From assembly GCA_020060545.1 (NCBI GenBank), contig JAGUZX010000055.1, positions 1-36,696 of the forward strand: a stretch of 36,696 nt of DNA, read 5' to 3'. Below, piece by piece: positions 1 through 7,517 of the stretch. The notes under the pieces were generated by a model. That model did no database searches. It had not been told where the DNA came from and saw nothing but the letters and a program-made list of their open reading frames with translations. Within the stretch, counting starts at the first letter, position 1; each line of letters begins with the position of its first letter. Made by a program: the position numbers and the translations under genes. Source of the stretch: Desulfovibrio sp. Lineage in GTDB: Bacteria > Bacillota > Dethiobacteria > DTU022.

Positions 1-85
1 ATGCTGTTATGAAGAGCCGTGTGCGTGAATAGCGCAAGCACGGTTCTGTGAGGGGTTATGCCCGCGAGGGCATAACCTACTCGAC
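1..85 (+). mobile_element. 3' end of a group II intron (domains V and VI)
   Basis: Bases 14-46 fold as a group II domain V. GAGCCGTG (14-21) pairs with CACGGTTC (39-46), leaving a two-base AG bulge before the distal TGCG/CGCA helix. The AGC of the catalytic triad is in the expected place. Bases 54-77 form a perfect 10-bp hairpin with a GCGA loop, as expected for domain VI, followed by CTACTCGAC, a typical bacterial intron 3' end. The intron probably ends near base 85. Its body and any reverse transcriptase would lie left of the window. It is inserted just beyond the 3' end of pdxT, on the opposite strand. Whether it is complete cannot be seen. Confidence 0.82.
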
Positions 86-92
86 CCTTGAT

Positions 93-668
93 CTATTTTG
101 CTTCGCACATCCGGATGAAGTAGAGGTGCAGGCGCAGGTCGCCGGTGAGTTCCGGGTGGAAGGAGGTGGTGAGCAGCCTGCCCTGGCGGGCGGCGACGAT
201 GCCTTCCTCCCGGGCGGCCAGCACCTCTACCCCGGAGCCCGCTGCGGTGATGATCGGGGCGCGGATGAAGACCCCCTCCACGGGCGAGTCGAATCCTTTC
301 AGCGCCACGGGCGCCTCGAAGCTTTCCTTCTGGCGGCCGAAAGCGTTGCGCCGCACCTTGATATCCATCAACCCCAGGCGGGCCTGGTCCTTGACCCCGT
401 CCAGGATCTCCCGGGCCAGCAGCACCATCCCGGCGCAGGTGCCGAAGACGGCCATACCGGCCCGGCAACGCTCCCTGATCACTTCATTCAAGCCGAAATG
501 CTCCATCAAGCTGCCGATGGTCGTACTTTCACCGCCGGGGATGATTAAACCGGCGATGCCCTCCAGGTCTCCGGGACGCTTTACCGCCGCCGGCTCAACC
601 CCGCAGCGCTTCAGCTGGTCCAGGTGCTCCGATACCGCTCCCTGCAGGGAGAGGACGCCGATTTTCAT
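93..668 (-). CDS. pdxT: pyridoxal 5'-phosphate synthase glutaminase subunit PdxT
   Basis: This is the glutaminase of the DXP-independent vitamin B6 pathway. It hydrolyses glutamine and passes ammonia to PdxS in the cytoplasmic PdxS/PdxT complex. The 191 residues match the family length. The class I amidotransferase features are in place: PGGEST at 44-49, the nucleophile C78 in GTCAGM, and the H171/E173 pair in HPEL. A GGGGG ribosome site lies about nine bases before the ATG. It starts three bases after the pdxS stop, so translational coupling is likely. It is the last gene of the aminotransferase-hisH-hisF-pdxS-pdxT series, and an intron end abuts its 3' side. Confidence 0.97.
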   Translation of the reverse strand: MKIGVLSLQGAVSEHLDQLKRCGVEPAAVKRPGDLEGIAGLIIPGGESTTIGSLMEHFGLNEVIRERCRAGMAVFGTCAGMVLLAREILDGVKDQARLGLMDIKVRRNAFGRQKESFEAPVALKGFDSPVEGVFIRAPIITAAGSGVEVLAAREEGIVAARQGRLLTTSFHPELTGDLRLHLYFIRMCEAK

Positions 669-671
669 CTA

Positions 672-1556
672 TCAAATCCCCCGTTCCTGCATGCGGTCCG
701 CCTGGGTCAGGCTGGATATTTCCAGGCCCCGCATCGCTTCGCCCAGGCCCTTTGAGACTTCGGCCAGGACCGCCGGGTCGTTGTAATGCAGGGTGGCCTT
801 GACGATCGCTCCGGCCATCACCTGCGGGTTTTGAGACTTGAAGATGCCGGAACCGACAAAGATGCCGTCGGAGCCAAGCTGCATCATCAGGGAGGCGTCG
901 GCGGGGGAGGCGATGCCTCCCGCGGCGAAATTGACCACCGGCAGGCGCCCTTCCCGCTTGACCTCTTTCACCAGTTCCAGGGATACGCCCATCTCCTTGG
1001 CCAGGACTACCAGTTCGTCGTCGGGAGTGTGGACGACCTGCCGGATCTGTTCCATCACCCGGCGCATGTGGCGCACCGCTTCGACCACGTTGCCGGTGCC
1101 GGGCTCCCCTTTGGTCCGGATCATCGCCGCCCCTTCGGAAATCCGGCGCAGCGCTTCGCCCAGGTCCCTGGCCCCGCAGACGAAGGGGACCTTGAACGGG
1201 TGCTTGTTGATGTGGAACTGCTCGTCGGCGGGGGTGAGCACTTCGCTTTCGTCGATATAATCCACGCCCAGCTCCTCAAGGATTTGGGCTTCGGCGAAAT
1301 GGCCGATCCGCACCTTGGCCATCACCGGGATCGTCACCGCGTCCATGATTTTCAAGATTATTTCCGGGTCCGCCATGCGCGCCACCCCGCCGGCGGCACG
1401 GATGTCCGCCGGGACCCTTTCCAGGGCCATCACCGCGACCGCCCCGGCCTGTTCGGCGATGCGGGCCTGCTCCGGCGTGGTCACGTCCATAATCACGCCG
1501 CCTTTTTGCATCTGGGCCATCCCTTTTTTCACGCGGAACGTGCCTTGTTCTTTCAT
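672..1556 (-). CDS. pdxS: pyridoxal 5'-phosphate synthase lyase subunit PdxS
   Basis: PdxS builds PLP from ribose 5-phosphate, glyceraldehyde 3-phosphate and ammonia supplied by PdxT. The 294-residue TIM barrel keeps the known catalytic residues at family positions: D24 in MDV, K81 in MAKVRIGHF, and K149 in IRTKG. A GGAGGG site stands nine bases before the ATG. It lies 22 bases after the hisF stop and three bases before pdxT, consistent with a single transcript. PLP is the cofactor of the aminotransferase encoded first in the operon and of HisC at 6417-7517. Identification is essentially certain; co-transcription with hisHF is inferred from spacing. Confidence 0.98.
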
Positions 1557-1578
1557 CTCACAGTTCCCTCCTGCTGGT

Positions 1579-2370
1579 TTAGGTAATATAATTGCTCACC
1601 GGCCGAACCGGCAGCCCTTTTTCCGCTAAAAAATTTTTGATTTCGGCTATGGAGTAGAGGCCGTAATGCAGGATCGAGGCGACCAGGACGGCGTGGGCCT
1701 TGCCGATGGTAAGAGCTTGGGAGAGGTGTTCCAGCGTGCCGGCCCCGCCCGAGGCGATTACCGGGATCGGTACCGCTCCGGCGACAGCGGCCAAAAGCGC
1801 GATGTCGTAGCCGTCCCGGGTCCCATCAGCGTCCATCGAGGTCAGCAATATTTCACCGGCGCCAAGTTTTTCAACTTCCACGGCCCACGCGATAGCGTCG
1901 CGGCCGGTAGGACGGCGCCCGCCGTGGCTGTATACTTCCCAGCGGGGAGGGGAGCCGGGCCGCTCCTCTACCCTGCGCGCGTCGATCGCCGTGACGATGC
2001 ACTGGCTGCCGAAACGCGCCGCCCCGTCCCGGATCAGCGCCGGGTTGGCCAGGGCGGCAGTATTGACGGAGATTTTATCCGCCCCGCTCTGCAGCAGCTC
2101 ACCCATGAAATCCACCGAGTCGATGCCGCCTCCCACGGCCAGCGGGATAAAAATTGACGCCGCGGTTTTGCGCACCACCTCGATCATGGTGCGCCGCCCC
2201 TCCGCGGAAGCGGTAATATCGAGGAAGACGAGTTCGTCCGCGCCCTCCCGGTCGTAGAACGCCGCTCTTTCCACTGGATCCCCGGCATCCTGCAGGTTTA
2301 CAAACCGGGTCCCTTTAACGACCCGGCCGCCCAAGACGTCCAGGCAGGGGATAATTCTTTTCGCCAGCAT
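1579..2370 (-). CDS. hisF: imidazole glycerol phosphate synthase subunit HisF
   Basis: HisF is the cyclase of histidine biosynthesis. It uses ammonia from HisH and PRFAR to make imidazole glycerol phosphate and AICAR. The 263-residue barrel begins with the family signature [10 protein letters not shown] and keeps the catalytic acids D11 and D130 (AIDARR). It also has the phosphate-binding glycines AVGGGI near 78-83 and ASGGAG near 205. It follows hisH by 24 bases. The other his genes are absent from the window except hisC, which lies on the other strand at 6417, so the pathway genes are dispersed. Confidence 0.97.
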
Positions 2371-2394: not shown

Positions 2395-3045
2395 CTAGGC
2401 GGGCAATAAAGTGGGATCGGCTATAATATTACCAAAATTGCTTAAAAGGCGCAAGCCTGCCGGCCCGCTTTTTTCCGGGTGGAACTGGACGCCGAGCAAA
2501 TTACGCACGCCAATGGCGGAGGTAAAAGGGGCGCCGTAGTCCGTGACGGCCAAGCGATGGCCCGGATCTGACGGCTGCACATAATATGAATGCGTGAAAT
2601 AAAAATAAGTCCCGCCGTTTAAACCGGCGAAGAGGGGATGGGACCGCGCCGGCGAGACCCTGTTCCAGCCGACGTGGGGAACCGGCAGGCCAGCCGGAAA
2701 ACGTCTCACCTGCCCGGCGACGGCGCCCAAGCCTTGCGGGAGCGGCCCGCCGGGGTTGCTTCGCTCCTCGCTCGATAAAAAAAGAAGCTGCAGCCCCAGG
2801 CAGATACCGAGAAAGGGTTTACCCTTCGCGATGCATTCCAGCAGCACGCTTGCCAGTCCTTTTTGCCTGATCAGCCCCATGGCATGCTCAAATGCGCCGA
2901 CCCCGGGGAAAACCACCCCGGCGGCGCCGGCAATGACTGCGGCGTCGTCGGTGATTACCGCCGGCAGGGAAACCTTCACCAGCGCCTTGTAAATACTGTT
3001 CAAGTTGGCGCAGCCGCTGTCGACGACGGCAACCGATTTCGGCAT
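2395..3045 (-). CDS. hisH: imidazole glycerol phosphate synthase subunit HisH
   Basis: HisH is the glutaminase partner of HisF. The chosen ATG at 3045 has GGAGG ten bases upstream and gives 216 residues, the usual size. The longer open frame to 3417 runs inside the aminotransferase gene and has no family similarity. The triad is visible: C82 in GICLGLQ, H189 and E191 in FHPEKS. The N-terminus reads DSGCANLNS, where many Firmicutes HisH have a GMGNL-type motif; E. coli HisH has a similar CANLNS sequence. It starts 22 bases after the aminotransferase stop. HisH and PdxT are homologous glutaminases encoded two genes apart. Confidence 0.96.
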   Translation of the reverse strand: MPKSVAVVDSGCANLNSIYKALVKVSLPAVITDDAAVIAGAAGVVFPGVGAFEHAMGLIRQKGLASVLLECIAKGKPFLGICLGLQLLFLSSEERSNPGGPLPQGLGAVAGQVRRFPAGLPVPHVGWNRVSPARSHPLFAGLNGGTYFYFTHSYYVQPSDPGHRLAVTDYGAPFTSAIGVRNLLGVQFHPEKSGPAGLRLLSNFGNIIADPTLLPA

Positions 3046-3067: not shown

Positions 3068-4303
3068 TCAGCCTGCCGCTCTACGGAGCGTCTTTTGACC
3101 GACCTGCTCAAAAAGTTCGCCCAGGCGGTCGATTCCTTTGACGATATCTTCAAGTCCCGGCTGGCTGAAGGAGAAGCGGGCGGTATGGGTCCCGCCGCCG
3201 TTGCTGAAAAATCCTTCGCCGTGGACAAAAGCAACCTTGCGCTCCAGCGCCAGCATGAGCAGGTCATTGGCCGGCGGGTAATGCGCCGGGAAAGAGACCC
3301 AGACAAAGAAACCGCCTTTCGGCCGGCTGAAGCCGATTTCCGGCGGGAAATATTGGTCCATCGCCCCCAGCATGGCGTCTCTCTTCTGGCGGTACTGCCC
3401 GACCAGCCGCTTGACATGGGCGTCGACGTAACCTTTCTGGGAGAGGGCGTAAGCCAGGCGCTGGCCCAGTGAACTGGAGCAGAGGTCGGTAGTTTGTTTG
3501 GCCAGGACCACCTTTTCCAGGAGCGGGGCTGCGCCGGCGATCCAGCCGATGCGGATGCCGGGAATAAACGTTTTGGAGTAAGAGCCGAGGTAAATTACCC
3601 GCCCCGACCGGTCCAGCGACTTGTAGGTGGGAGGGACCTCTCCTTCATAGACCAGTTCGCCGTAGGGGTTATCCTCGATTATCAGCAGGTTATACCGGTT
3701 GGCCAGCTCCAGCACGGCCCGGCGCCGGGCCAGGCTGGTGGTGTAGCCAGTGGGATTTTGAAAATTGCTGACGGTGTAGAACAGCTTCGGGTTTTTTCCC
3801 TGGAGGGCCAGCTGCTGCAAAGTTCTTTCCATAACGTCGGGGAGGGGGCCGTCCGGATCCATAGTTATGCCCGCGGGCGCGCCGCCGTAAGACTGGATCG
3901 CGCCCATGGCACCGATATAGGCCGGCTCCTCCACCAGGACGGGATCGCCCGGGTCGACCAGGATCCGGCACAACAGGTCCAGGGCCTGCTGGGAGCCGTC
4001 CGTGATGATGATGTTTTCCAACTCGCAGGGCGATCCTTCGCGGCGCATTTTTCCGGCCAGGTAAGCGCGCAGCTCGTAGTTTCCTTCCGTGGGGCCGTAT
4101 TGCAGCGCATAGCGGCCTTCTTCCCTGACCAGCTCGGCCAGGGTGCGGGCGATGTCCTCCCGCGGAAAAAACTCGCTGCCGGGAAAACCACCGGCAAATG
4201 AGATCACCTCCGGCCGTTCCGTAAGCCTGAAAAAGTTCCTGATCTGCGATCCGGTGATCCGTTTGACCCGCCCGGCGTAAAACTCCTGCCATTCGATCGT
4301 CAT
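3068..4303 (-). CDS. PLP-dependent aminotransferase, class I/II (LysN/MocR-like)
   Basis: This is a 411-residue fold-type I aminotransferase. The PLP-binding lysine is K244 in SYSKTF, followed by PGIRIGW. D211 in IEDNPYGEL should contact the pyridine nitrogen, and NPTG lies at 183-186. The FAGGFPG and ALQYGPTEG segments are typical of the 2-aminoadipate/aromatic group that includes LysN and the catalytic part of MocR regulators. There is no N-terminal GntR domain. The substrate cannot be read from sequence. It is the first gene after a T-box leader, with GGGAGGAG eight bases before the ATG. The T-box specifier is read, weakly, as a serine codon, so a role tied to amino-acid supply is likely but undefined. 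Confidence 0.93.
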   Translation of the reverse strand: MTIEWQEFYAGRVKRITGSQIRNFFRLTERPEVISFAGGFPGSEFFPREDIARTLAELVREEGRYALQYGPTEGNYELRAYLAGKMRREGSPCELENIIITDGSQQALDLLCRILVDPGDPVLVEEPAYIGAMGAIQSYGGAPAGITMDPDGPLPDVMERTLQQLALQGKNPKLFYTVSNFQNPTGYTTSLARRRAVLELANRYNLLIIEDNPYGELVYEGEVPPTYKSLDRSGRVIYLGSYSKTFIPGIRIGWIAGAAPLLEKVVLAKQTTDLCSSSLGQRLAYALSQKGYVDAHVKRLVGQYRQKRDAMLGAMDQYFPPEIGFSRPKGGFFVWVSFPAHYPPANDLLMLALERKVAFVHGEGFFSNGGGTHTARFSFSQPGLEDIVKGIDRLGELFEQVGQKTLRRAAG

Positions 4304-4361
4304 TCTGGCTGCTCCTCCCTGTGCTGAAGTAAGAATAGCGATGCGGCTCCCGGCAATGATA

Positions 4362-4606
4362 AGCCCGCCTCTCCTGATCTAGGAAGAGACGGGCCTTTTC
4401 CCGCGGTACCACTCTTGTTGCCCCCTTGCAGGGGACCTCTCGTTATGGATAACGGCATTTTCAGCCGGCCGCGCTTAGTGGCCTTTTCGGCTTTAGGCGG
4501 GCTACTCCGGGGCGGCTTATCGCTTTGCTCCGCCGGGACCCTTGCAGCCTCGGGAGTCCCTCTCTGGATGGCGGGTTAAAGTTTTTTTCCCCATCTTCGT
4601 GTTTGG
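4362..4606 (-). promoter_or_regulatory. T-box leader upstream of the aminotransferase-hisHF-pdxST operon
   Basis: Read on the minus strand, the leader contains the T-box core AGAGTGGTACCGCGG (4401-4415), which pairs with the acceptor end of uncharged tRNA. An AGAGAGGGAC stem I element lies near 4555 and a GGAG K-turn-like strand near 4510. A terminator lies just after the T-box. Folding by eye puts the 3' side of the specifier loop between an AAAG helix strand and CCCC, reading CGATAAGCCG. Aligned with the B. subtilis glyQS leader, the specifier would be AGC (serine) at 4515-4517. The T-box call is strong. The specifier call is tentative because the expected AGTA on the opposite loop strand is not obvious. 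Confidence 0.92.
4363..4394 (-). terminator. T-box attenuator hairpin
   Basis: GCCCG followed by a CT-rich arm pairs with AGGAGAGGCGGGC across a short AGATC loop, immediately downstream of the T-box core on the minus strand. The arm that pairs with the T-box side would instead form the antiterminator when uncharged tRNA binds. The T-tract after the stem (TTATCATT) is weak for a Rho-independent terminator, so termination efficiency is uncertain. Confidence 0.75.
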
Positions 4607-4626
4607 TTGTTTAAATAATTATATGC

Positions 4627-4655
4627 AGTATAGCAGATCCGGGAACCCTTTGCAA
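4627..4655 (-). promoter_or_regulatory. sigma-A promoter of the T-box operon
   Basis: On the minus strand TTGCAA (4650-4655) and TATACT (4627-4632) are separated by exactly 17 bases. This places the start of transcription near 4620, about 15 to 20 bases before the T-box stem I. Spacing and position agree with a promoter that makes the T-box RNA. Confidence 0.75.
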
Positions 4656-4847: not shown

Positions 4848-5440
4848 TTGGGCCTGCCTTTTTCTTTAAAATACTATGATGACAGCAAATTAGTATGCAG
4901 GCTGTGGGATAAATATAGCATCAAGCCGATCATTGACCTCCGCAACATGTGGAAAGATGGGGAAGAAACGCGCCTGGTAGAGGGCAAAGATAATGTAGTT
5001 TACAACTACCGCGGCTGTGTTTACTGCTATTGCCCGGCGACAGGAATCAAAAGAGAGATGGCTTATGCCGGTTTTGAGCAGGATCGAGAAACGTTAAAAT
5101 ATCGTTGTCCCGCAGAGCACTACGAGATTAACTGTGCCGGTAAAGAGAGTTGTCCGCTGGGCAAAGCGGGACGGATACCGTTAAAAGAAGACCGCCGGGT
5201 TTTCACTCCCGTGGCCCGTTCCAGCACCAGTGGGAAAATCTTTACAACATGCGTTCGGCGGTGGAGCGAGTCAATAGCAGGATTGATGATCCCTTCGGCT
5301 TTAAGAAGCACTATATCCGTGGATTTAAGAAAATGCAGTTGCGCGTCGGTCTGGCTCTTTGCGTGATGCTGGCCATGGCACTGGGGAAGATCAAAGAAAA
5401 CAAGGCGGAGCAGATGCGCAGCCTTGTAAAGGCGGCCTAA
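4848..5440 (+). pseudogene. 5'-truncated, frameshifted DDE transposase (IS4/IS1182-like)
   Basis: The C-terminal half of a transposase is split between two frames. The first frame, from about 4848, encodes a segment with IIDLRNMWKDGEE and a cysteine pattern CVYCYCP. The second frame carries ENLYNMRSAVERVNSR, whose E fits the last DDE acid, then a RVGLALCVMLAMALG tail ending at 5440. The join near 5225 fits loss of one base: ARSS then QWENLYN needs a TAC codon where only AC is left. There is no N-terminal half in the 190 bases upstream, where the frame closes at 4815. No inverted repeats were recognised. The family assignment is approximate; that it is an inactive transposase remnant is likely. 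Confidence 0.82.
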
Positions 5441-6384: not shown

Positions 6385-6416
6385 GAGAAAAAGATAGCCG
6401 GATGGAGGAGAGCGAT

Positions 6417-7517
6417 GTGACTGGACCGAAGAGACGGGACTGCCTGGATTTGATCAAGCCCTATGTGCCGGGCAAGCCGGTGGAAGAAGTGGAGCGGGAG
6501 TTGGGGCTGTCGGATGTAATCAAGCTGGCTTCAAACGAGAACGCGCTGGGGCCGTCCCCCCTGGCCGTGCAGGCCCTCAAAGGCTTCCTGGAGCGGTTGC
6601 ACTTTTACCCCGACGGCAACTGCTTCTACCTCAAGCGGGCTTTGGCCGCAAAACTGGCGGTCGAGTCGGAGCAGCTGATCGTCGGGAACGGTTCCGACGA
6701 ACTGCTGATTCTTCTGGCGGCGGCCTACGCCGGGCCCGGCGACGAGGCGGTCGCCCCCTACCCGACTTTCTCCGAATACGAATTCGCGATGCGCATGATG
6801 GGCGGGGCGCCCTGTTACATCCCGCTCGCCGGAGCTGATTTTACATACGACCTGGAGGCCATGGCCGCAGCCGTTAATGAACGGACCCGCCTGGTCTTTA
6901 TCTGCAGCCCGAACAACCCGACCGGGACGATCGTGAAGCGGGCCGCCCTGGAGCGTTTCCTGGACCGCCTGCCTCCCGGCATCCTGGTCGTTCTCGACCA
7001 GGCCTACCTGGAGTACGCCACCGATCCGGAGCACCCGTCGGGCCTGGACTGGATCCGGCAGGGGCGCCCGGTCATCGCCCTCCGCACCTTTTCGAAAATT
7101 TACGGGCTGGCCGGGCTGCGCATCGGCTACGGCATTGCGCCTGCCGGGGTGATTGAGGATTTGAACCGGGTCCGGCAGCCGTTTAATGTCAACGCCGCGG
7201 CCCAGGCGGCGGCGCTCGCCGCCCTGGGGGACGAGGCGCACCTTCGCGCGAGCCGCAAACTGGCCGAAGAGAGCAGGATGCAGCTTGCGGCCGGGCTGGC
7301 GGAGCTGGGATTTCGGATGGTGCCCTCGCAGACAAATTTCTGTTTTGTCGACTTGAGGACCGACTCGAAGCAGGTGTTCCAGGCGCTGTTGCGCCGAGGC
7401 GTGATCGTGCGGACCGGGGACATCTTCGGCTACCCGACCCACATCCGGGTCACCTTCGGCACCGCCGCGCAAAACGAACGTTTCCTGGAAGCGCTCAAGG
7501 AAGTCCTCTCCGAATAA
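6417..7517 (+). CDS. hisC: histidinol-phosphate aminotransferase HisC
   Basis: HisC converts imidazole acetol phosphate to histidinol phosphate using glutamate and PLP. The 366-residue protein has SNENALG near 39, NNPTG at 166-170, D194 in VLDQAYLEY, and the PLP lysine K227 in TFSKIYGLAGLRIGYG. The start is placed at GTG 6417 because GGAGGAG stands six bases upstream; the ATG at 6402 would overlap that site's upstream end and has no ribosome site. It is separated from hisHF by the deacetylase and transcribed the other way. Paralogous specificity for aromatic substrates is possible in this family, but HisC is the best reading. Confidence 0.93.
   Translation: MTGPKRRDCLDLIKPYVPGKPVEEVERELGLSDVIKLASNENALGPSPLAVQALKGFLERLHFYPDGNCFYLKRALAAKLAVESEQLIVGNGSDELLILLAAAYAGPGDEAVAPYPTFSEYEFAMRMMGGAPCYIPLAGADFTYDLEAMAAAVNERTRLVFICSPNNPTGTIVKRAALERFLDRLPPGILVVLDQAYLEYATDPEHPSGLDWIRQGRPVIALRTFSKIYGLAGLRIGYGIAPAGVIEDLNRVRQPFNVNAAAQAAALAALGDEAHLRASRKLAEESRMQLAAGLAELGFRMVPSQTNFCFVDLRTDSKQVFQALLRRGVIVRTGDIFGYPTHIRVTFGTAAQNERFLEALKEVLSE

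Follow-up and report, generated by a model that had tools for sequence, protein, structure and literature searches.

The window, that is the whole stretch of 36,696 nucleotides that was analysed (contig JAGUZX010000055.1, from a genome assigned to the Dethiobacteria), carries near its start five closely spaced genes on the minus strand, preceded by a promoter and a T-box leader. The features are, in order of coordinates:

93-668, minus strand: pdxT (TIGR03800, 241 bits)
672-1556, minus strand: pdxS (NF003215, 517.1 bits)
1579-2370, minus strand: hisF (TIGR00735, 358.3 bits)
2395-3045, minus strand: hisH (TIGR01855, 201.5 bits)
3068-4303, minus strand: PLP-dependent class I/II aminotransferase of 411 aa (general Pfam family PF00155 only)
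4312-4319, minus strand: ribosome binding site GGGAGGAG for the aminotransferase gene, not part of the terminator stem
4363-4394, minus strand: intrinsic terminator hairpin (-22.8 kcal/mol; covariation)
4380-4416, minus strand: antiterminator with a seven-base bulge (-9.4 kcal/mol; sequence conserved in relatives)
4408-4411, minus strand: T-box bulge UGGU, predicted to pair with the ACCA of tRNA-Ala
4382-4606, minus strand: T-box leader (full-length RF00230, covariance fit)
4501-4604, minus strand: Stem I of the aminotransferase-linked T-box subclass (model R1, 88.9 bits; covariation)
4514-4516, minus strand: specifier GCC, alanine (covariance fit, register, Stem I alignment)
4627-4655, minus strand: promoter of the sigma-70/A type, TTGCAA-17-TATACT with a TG before the -10 element; relatives show a comparable element in this position

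HisH, HisF, PdxS and PdxT exceed their NCBIfam cut-offs and the aminotransferase passes PF00155 alone, its nearest relatives of solved structure being the Thermococcus multiple-substrate enzyme, PH0207 and 2-aminoadipate transaminase. The LysN and multiple-substrate aminotransferases (PDB 2egy, 1wst), which come from Thermus and Thermococcus/Pyrococcus, are related in sequence to the first gene along almost all of it. The intergenic gaps in the order aminotransferase-hisH-hisF-pdxS-pdxT are 22, 24, 22 and 3 nt, and promoter-like matches inside the aminotransferase gene (3705-3678) and inside hisF (1874-1847) make internal promoters possible. In a preliminary description of this DNA, a promoter, a T-box core and an attenuator had been placed before a five-gene operon, with PLP synthase genes downstream of a tRNA sensor, and both points hold: the aminotransferase, hisHF and pdxST form a tight operon behind the T-box leader, the coordinates of which had also been given correctly. 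Around the operon, hisC lies divergently upstream (6402-7517, plus strand), a position conserved in many relatives, and hisC and hisHF are thus neighbours on opposite strands. Between the leader promoter and pdaB there is a frame-broken remnant of a DDE transposase (PF01609, just below the cut-off; 4848-5440, plus strand), and the end of pdxT is adjoined at the contig edge by the 3' end of a group II intron (RF00029, 51.4 bits; 12-85, plus strand).

The covariance model RF00230 fits the leader with its full length (1-219 of 219) at 4606-4382 on the minus strand with 78.3 bits and an E value of 2e-17, which bears out the T-box that had been recognised from the letters. The Rfam gathering score for this model is 93 bits, which is why the leader is overlooked by default annotation; it is one of 14 T-box matches in the genome. 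All parts are present, from the promoter and Stems I to III to the UGGU bulge, the antiterminator and the terminator, and Stem I has a specifier codon, an AG bulge and a distal loop. With class I T-boxes (RF00230; TBDB), the leader shares this Stem I with its AG bulge and distal loop, Stem II, Stem III, the UGGN bulge of the antiterminator, the terminator, and an amino-acid gene downstream, whereas it lacks the AGUA opposite GAA and remains below the gathering score. A plain fold of the leader is not more stable than that of shuffled sequences (z -0.34), and it is therefore the covariance fit together with the comparison of relatives that carries the case; by these the leader is confirmed to be a genuine T-box riboswitch that is conserved in relatives. 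The sequence GAGTGGTACC, with UGGN in the seven-base antiterminator bulge, is unchanged in 23 of 23 leaders, and terminator and antiterminator, both of which are found in the window leader, are mutually exclusive folds. As the terminator stem does not include the ribosome binding site, the control is likely transcriptional and not translational. In the open literature searched, which was that other than the two main older T-box surveys (PMC2271356, PMC2650889), no report of a T-box in front of this aminotransferase was found.

When RNAalifold was applied to the whole leader, the lower strands of Stem I were paired to the T-box region and not to each other, and for this reason the structure of Stem I was written by hand and tested separately. 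In this test 88.3% of the cells were paired, with 14 pairs showing two-sided change, none of 500 shuffles came as high, and the optimum lay clearly at slide 0, where it has to be considered that the structure was partly derived from the tested sequences and the slide control is therefore biased toward the structure as drawn. In the remaining T-boxes of the genome the specifier loop carries the S-turn motif, with AGUA facing GAA; in the Stem I alignment, AGUA is absent from the specifier loop of the aminotransferase subclass, and few members retain GAA beside the specifier. As the S-turn is found in most T-boxes but not in all of them (PMC4695836), the subclass is a variant and not a non-member, and as AGUA and GAA are missing from the loop, the usual geometry alone cannot fix the register of the specifier. 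In the alaS T-box of B. subtilis it is the loop E of Stem II that is missing, whereas here it is the S-turn of Stem I (PMC4695836). The motif has been linked in a review to the avoidance of clashes with tRNA modifications, and a conserved T-box subclass without it in Stem I is a natural test of its purpose.

The register was calibrated with 12 other T-boxes of the genome that stand before genes of known specificity, the window leader being excluded. Their specifiers are CTC (leuA), GTC (ilvE), TAC and TTC (aroF), ATC (ileS), CTC (leuS), CGC (argC), TGC (cysE-cysS), TTC (pheS), TGG (trpE), GGC (glyQ) and TGG (trpB), and in these T-boxes the specifier is followed by one base and then by an 8-mer that ends with GAG. 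The window leader reads AUAA-GCC-G-CCCCGGAG, and the rule yields GCC at 4516-4514; the +0 frame of TBDB, by which the specifier lies 2-4 bases ahead of where the specifier bulge ends (PMC7778990), likewise gives GCC. In the Stem I alignment made with the covariance model, the specifier column is GCC in every inspected leader that is linked to the aminotransferase, and two matches on other T-boxes in the same alignment have UGC there. The distant relative L027 has two complete tandem T-boxes before its aminotransferase (1300-1850, plus strand; the enzyme is 49% identical to that of the window), the first being canonical with AGUA and GAA and the second of the variant type, and both have GCC. 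The tRNA-Ala(GGC) of the genome has A73, which matches UGGU. There is thus, as in alanine-specific T-boxes, a GCN specifier in register and a match to the tRNA-Ala discriminator, with the particular codon GCC being the specifier in only 9% of the alanine T-boxes in TBDB.

UGGU by itself fits alanine and proline alike and could by a G:U wobble admit serine, and it is therefore the register together with the conservation that has to decide the specificity. The specifier had been read by eye as AGC (4517-4515), which is in the same loop shifted one base early and would mean a serine T-box with uncharged tRNA-Ser(GCU) activating the operon. AGC is indeed present in the loop here and in most relatives, the genome encodes a tRNA-Ser(GCU), and TBDB permits a G:U pair at the discriminator, so that a G73 is not strictly barred. 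Nevertheless, AGC is off by one base from the register of all 12 calibration T-boxes, and neither with this calibration nor in the Stem I alignment is a serine codon found in the specifier register. The base 5' of GCC is A in most leaders, C in L022 (CGCC) and G in the second T-box of L027 (GGCC), so that AGC is lost in these two and GCC is retained. Furthermore, the UGGU of the inspected leaders would require a wobble with the G73 that is found in all four Ser tRNAs, and the serS gene of this genome has no T-box. The serine reading can hardly be correct; register, conservation and discriminator match favour GCC instead. Shifted by one base in the other direction, the specifier would be CCG or CCA for proline, and third-base changes would then be synonymous: CCG, CCA, CCC and CCT all occur, each of them a proline codon, and the A73 of tRNA-Pro matches UGGU. 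This is again one base off the register, and the base that varies, the one directly 3' of GCC, is at the site where a purine is preferred for stacking (PMC7583486); it is mostly G or A and in only a few leaders C or U. Also the canonical first T-box of L027 reads GAAA-GCC-G-TCCCGGAG, and a proline T-box is therefore highly improbable. That an alanine-specific, tRNA-Ala(GGC)-dependent transcriptional T-box acts on the operon has, by our estimate, a probability of about 0.85.

Leaders of this type, taken as those whose Stem I match scores 54.8 bits or more, are present in 47 of 98 genomes of the class, distributed over the families f1, f3, f4, f5, f6 and f143; GCC was found in all leaders examined, from 41 of the 47 genomes, and two matches just under the threshold are of the cysteine type. 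Of the first 30 loci, 27 have a full aminotransferase gene behind the leader, two are cut by contig ends and one has a partial aminotransferase. Members of f1 as a rule have the order aminotransferase-hisH-hisF, with pdxS-pdxT next among the loci whose contig sequence extended far enough, and deviations occur: one genome (G010) has aminotransferase-pdxST without hisHF, in another (G042) pdxS is located elsewhere, and some relatives have a wider spacing behind the aminotransferase. In f6 and f143 the leader precedes the aminotransferase alone, with no his or pdx genes behind, which indicates that the aminotransferase is the gene to which the T-box belongs; the his and pdx genes probably joined the transcription unit later, to judge from this gene order. 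Directly upstream of more distant aminotransferases (at most 46% identity), no T-box core was seen. In G001 the leader lies on one contig and the aminotransferase on another, and the 230 bases that precede the gene are different sequence, as would result from an insertion.

The leader had also been suspected to descend from a serS-pdxST neighbourhood, as it presumably exists in B. subtilis, where we take a serS T-box to adjoin pdxST. The two have in common a T-box near pdxST, whereas the amino acid and the target gene differ and the neighbourhood is not shared. The serS of this genome is on another contig than the operon (C63:44402-45646), and none of the 14 T-box matches is beside it. In four relatives whose contigs reach past pdxT (L015, L016, L019, L020), no serS was seen beyond it; there a convergent guaA-like gene, assigned by eye from the sequence, follows directly or after other genes. 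With a separate serS that has no T-box, the guaA neighbour, and leaders that precede the aminotransferase even where no his or pdx gene comes next, this descent is rejected.

If the alanine-specific T-box functions as its anatomy suggests, scarcity of alanine would leave tRNA-Ala(GGC) uncharged, its anticodon would bind the GCC of Stem I, its ACCA end would pair to the UGGU of the antiterminator, and the terminator would not form, so that RNA polymerase could proceed into the aminotransferase gene, hisH, hisF, pdxS and pdxT; with charged tRNA, transcription would halt before the aminotransferase gene. The anatomy, the register of the specifier, the conservation and the gene order are direct observations, from which we infer that the switching depends on the tRNA and that a single transcript covers the five genes. 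The aminotransferase is in this view the original target, to which hisHF and the PLP synthase genes were probably added later, PLP being the cofactor of the aminotransferase. A PLP supply beside a PLP enzyme is readily understandable, which the presence of hisHF is not. Going by the specifier only, the aminotransferase is somewhat likely to make alanine from pyruvate, and it need not be the sole source of alanine, as an alanine dehydrogenase is also encoded in the genome. In uncultured Bacillota, an alanine signal is hereby assigned to genes of PLP and histidine synthesis and to a so far uncharacterised aminotransferase, which thereby gains a testable function. The alaS T-boxes of Bacillus subtilis and Clostridium acetobutylicum share with this leader an alanine specifier and the pairing of UGGU with the ACCA of tRNA-Ala, but they use GCU in place of GCC and precede alaS and not an aminotransferase operon (PMC4695836).

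It is compatible with the alanine reading, and rather unlikely, that the T-box controls only the aminotransferase and that hisHF and pdxST have promoters of their own. The leaders of f6 and f143, with the aminotransferase alone downstream, would agree with this, as would the promoter-like matches within the aminotransferase and hisF genes and the longer gaps in some relatives, but the gaps in the window are too small for intergenic promoters, and the order aminotransferase-hisH-hisF has been retained in about 19 genomes. Very unlikely is also a decayed T-box that has lost its switching in this organism: the T tract 3' of the terminator (TTATCATT, 4362-4355) is weak and most relatives have a stronger one, the score is below the gathering cut-off and the S-turn of Stem II is degenerate, but the T-box core, the specifier, both hairpins and Stem I are all intact.

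The predicted ligand of the alanine switch is itself encoded at an unusual place. Among 41 tRNA matches in the genome, the only tRNA-Ala(GGC) sits within the T-box leader of leuS, between Stem III and the antiterminator:

L005:1548-1622 (G000:C101), minus strand: intact tRNA-Ala(GGC) with encoded CCA, in the leuS leader (CUC specifier)
L166-L195, L209-L221, L223 and L226-L228: the same arrangement of tRNA-Ala(GGC) in the leuS leader

This location is plainly observed, and no published description of it was found in the open literature. The embedded tRNA-Ala(GGC) is conserved in the family and present in all of the 30 best-matching loci (the own locus and 29 relatives), of which 28 have leuS downstream and the other two end at contig ends. 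In a sample of the phylum, the pattern of a tRNA plus a T-box was matched by 82 of 398 genomes (about a fifth) versus four for the reversed pattern, with about five of the 82 clearly not having a tRNA-Ala. Inspection of 20 loci of the phylum gave 17 intact tRNA-Ala(GGC), one that was cut by a contig end and two chance tRNA-Ser matches, and in most of these loci the specifier is CUC and the gene is leuS. Most simply, the embedded tRNA would use the always-transcribed leuS leader as its transcription unit. Two T-boxes could conceivably be connected in series, with the tRNA ligand of the alanine switch being made by transcription of the leucine T-box leader, which we regard as improbable; if true, this wiring would link leucine and alanine status. 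Both features, the alanine leader and the embedded tRNA, occur together in about 17 genomes, and they are not obligately linked, as in f6 the alanine leader is present and the pattern gave no match to an embedded tRNA.

Some loci have parts of this arrangement. At L207 and L219 a T-box core and leuS come after the tRNA-Ala(GGC), with no Stem I recognisable by eye upstream, and these are possibly half-lost T-boxes. At L197, L201 and L204, which are from other families, the tRNA-Ala(GGC) is followed by a terminator with a CTCGTCCCT-like sequence and no T-box core, and at L204 a leuS-like start lies downstream; also these may be remnants of a tRNA in a leuS leader. Tandem T-boxes of another kind stand before aroF at L003 and L014 (G000:C37), where a phenylalanine T-box (TTC) is followed by a tyrosine T-box (TAC).
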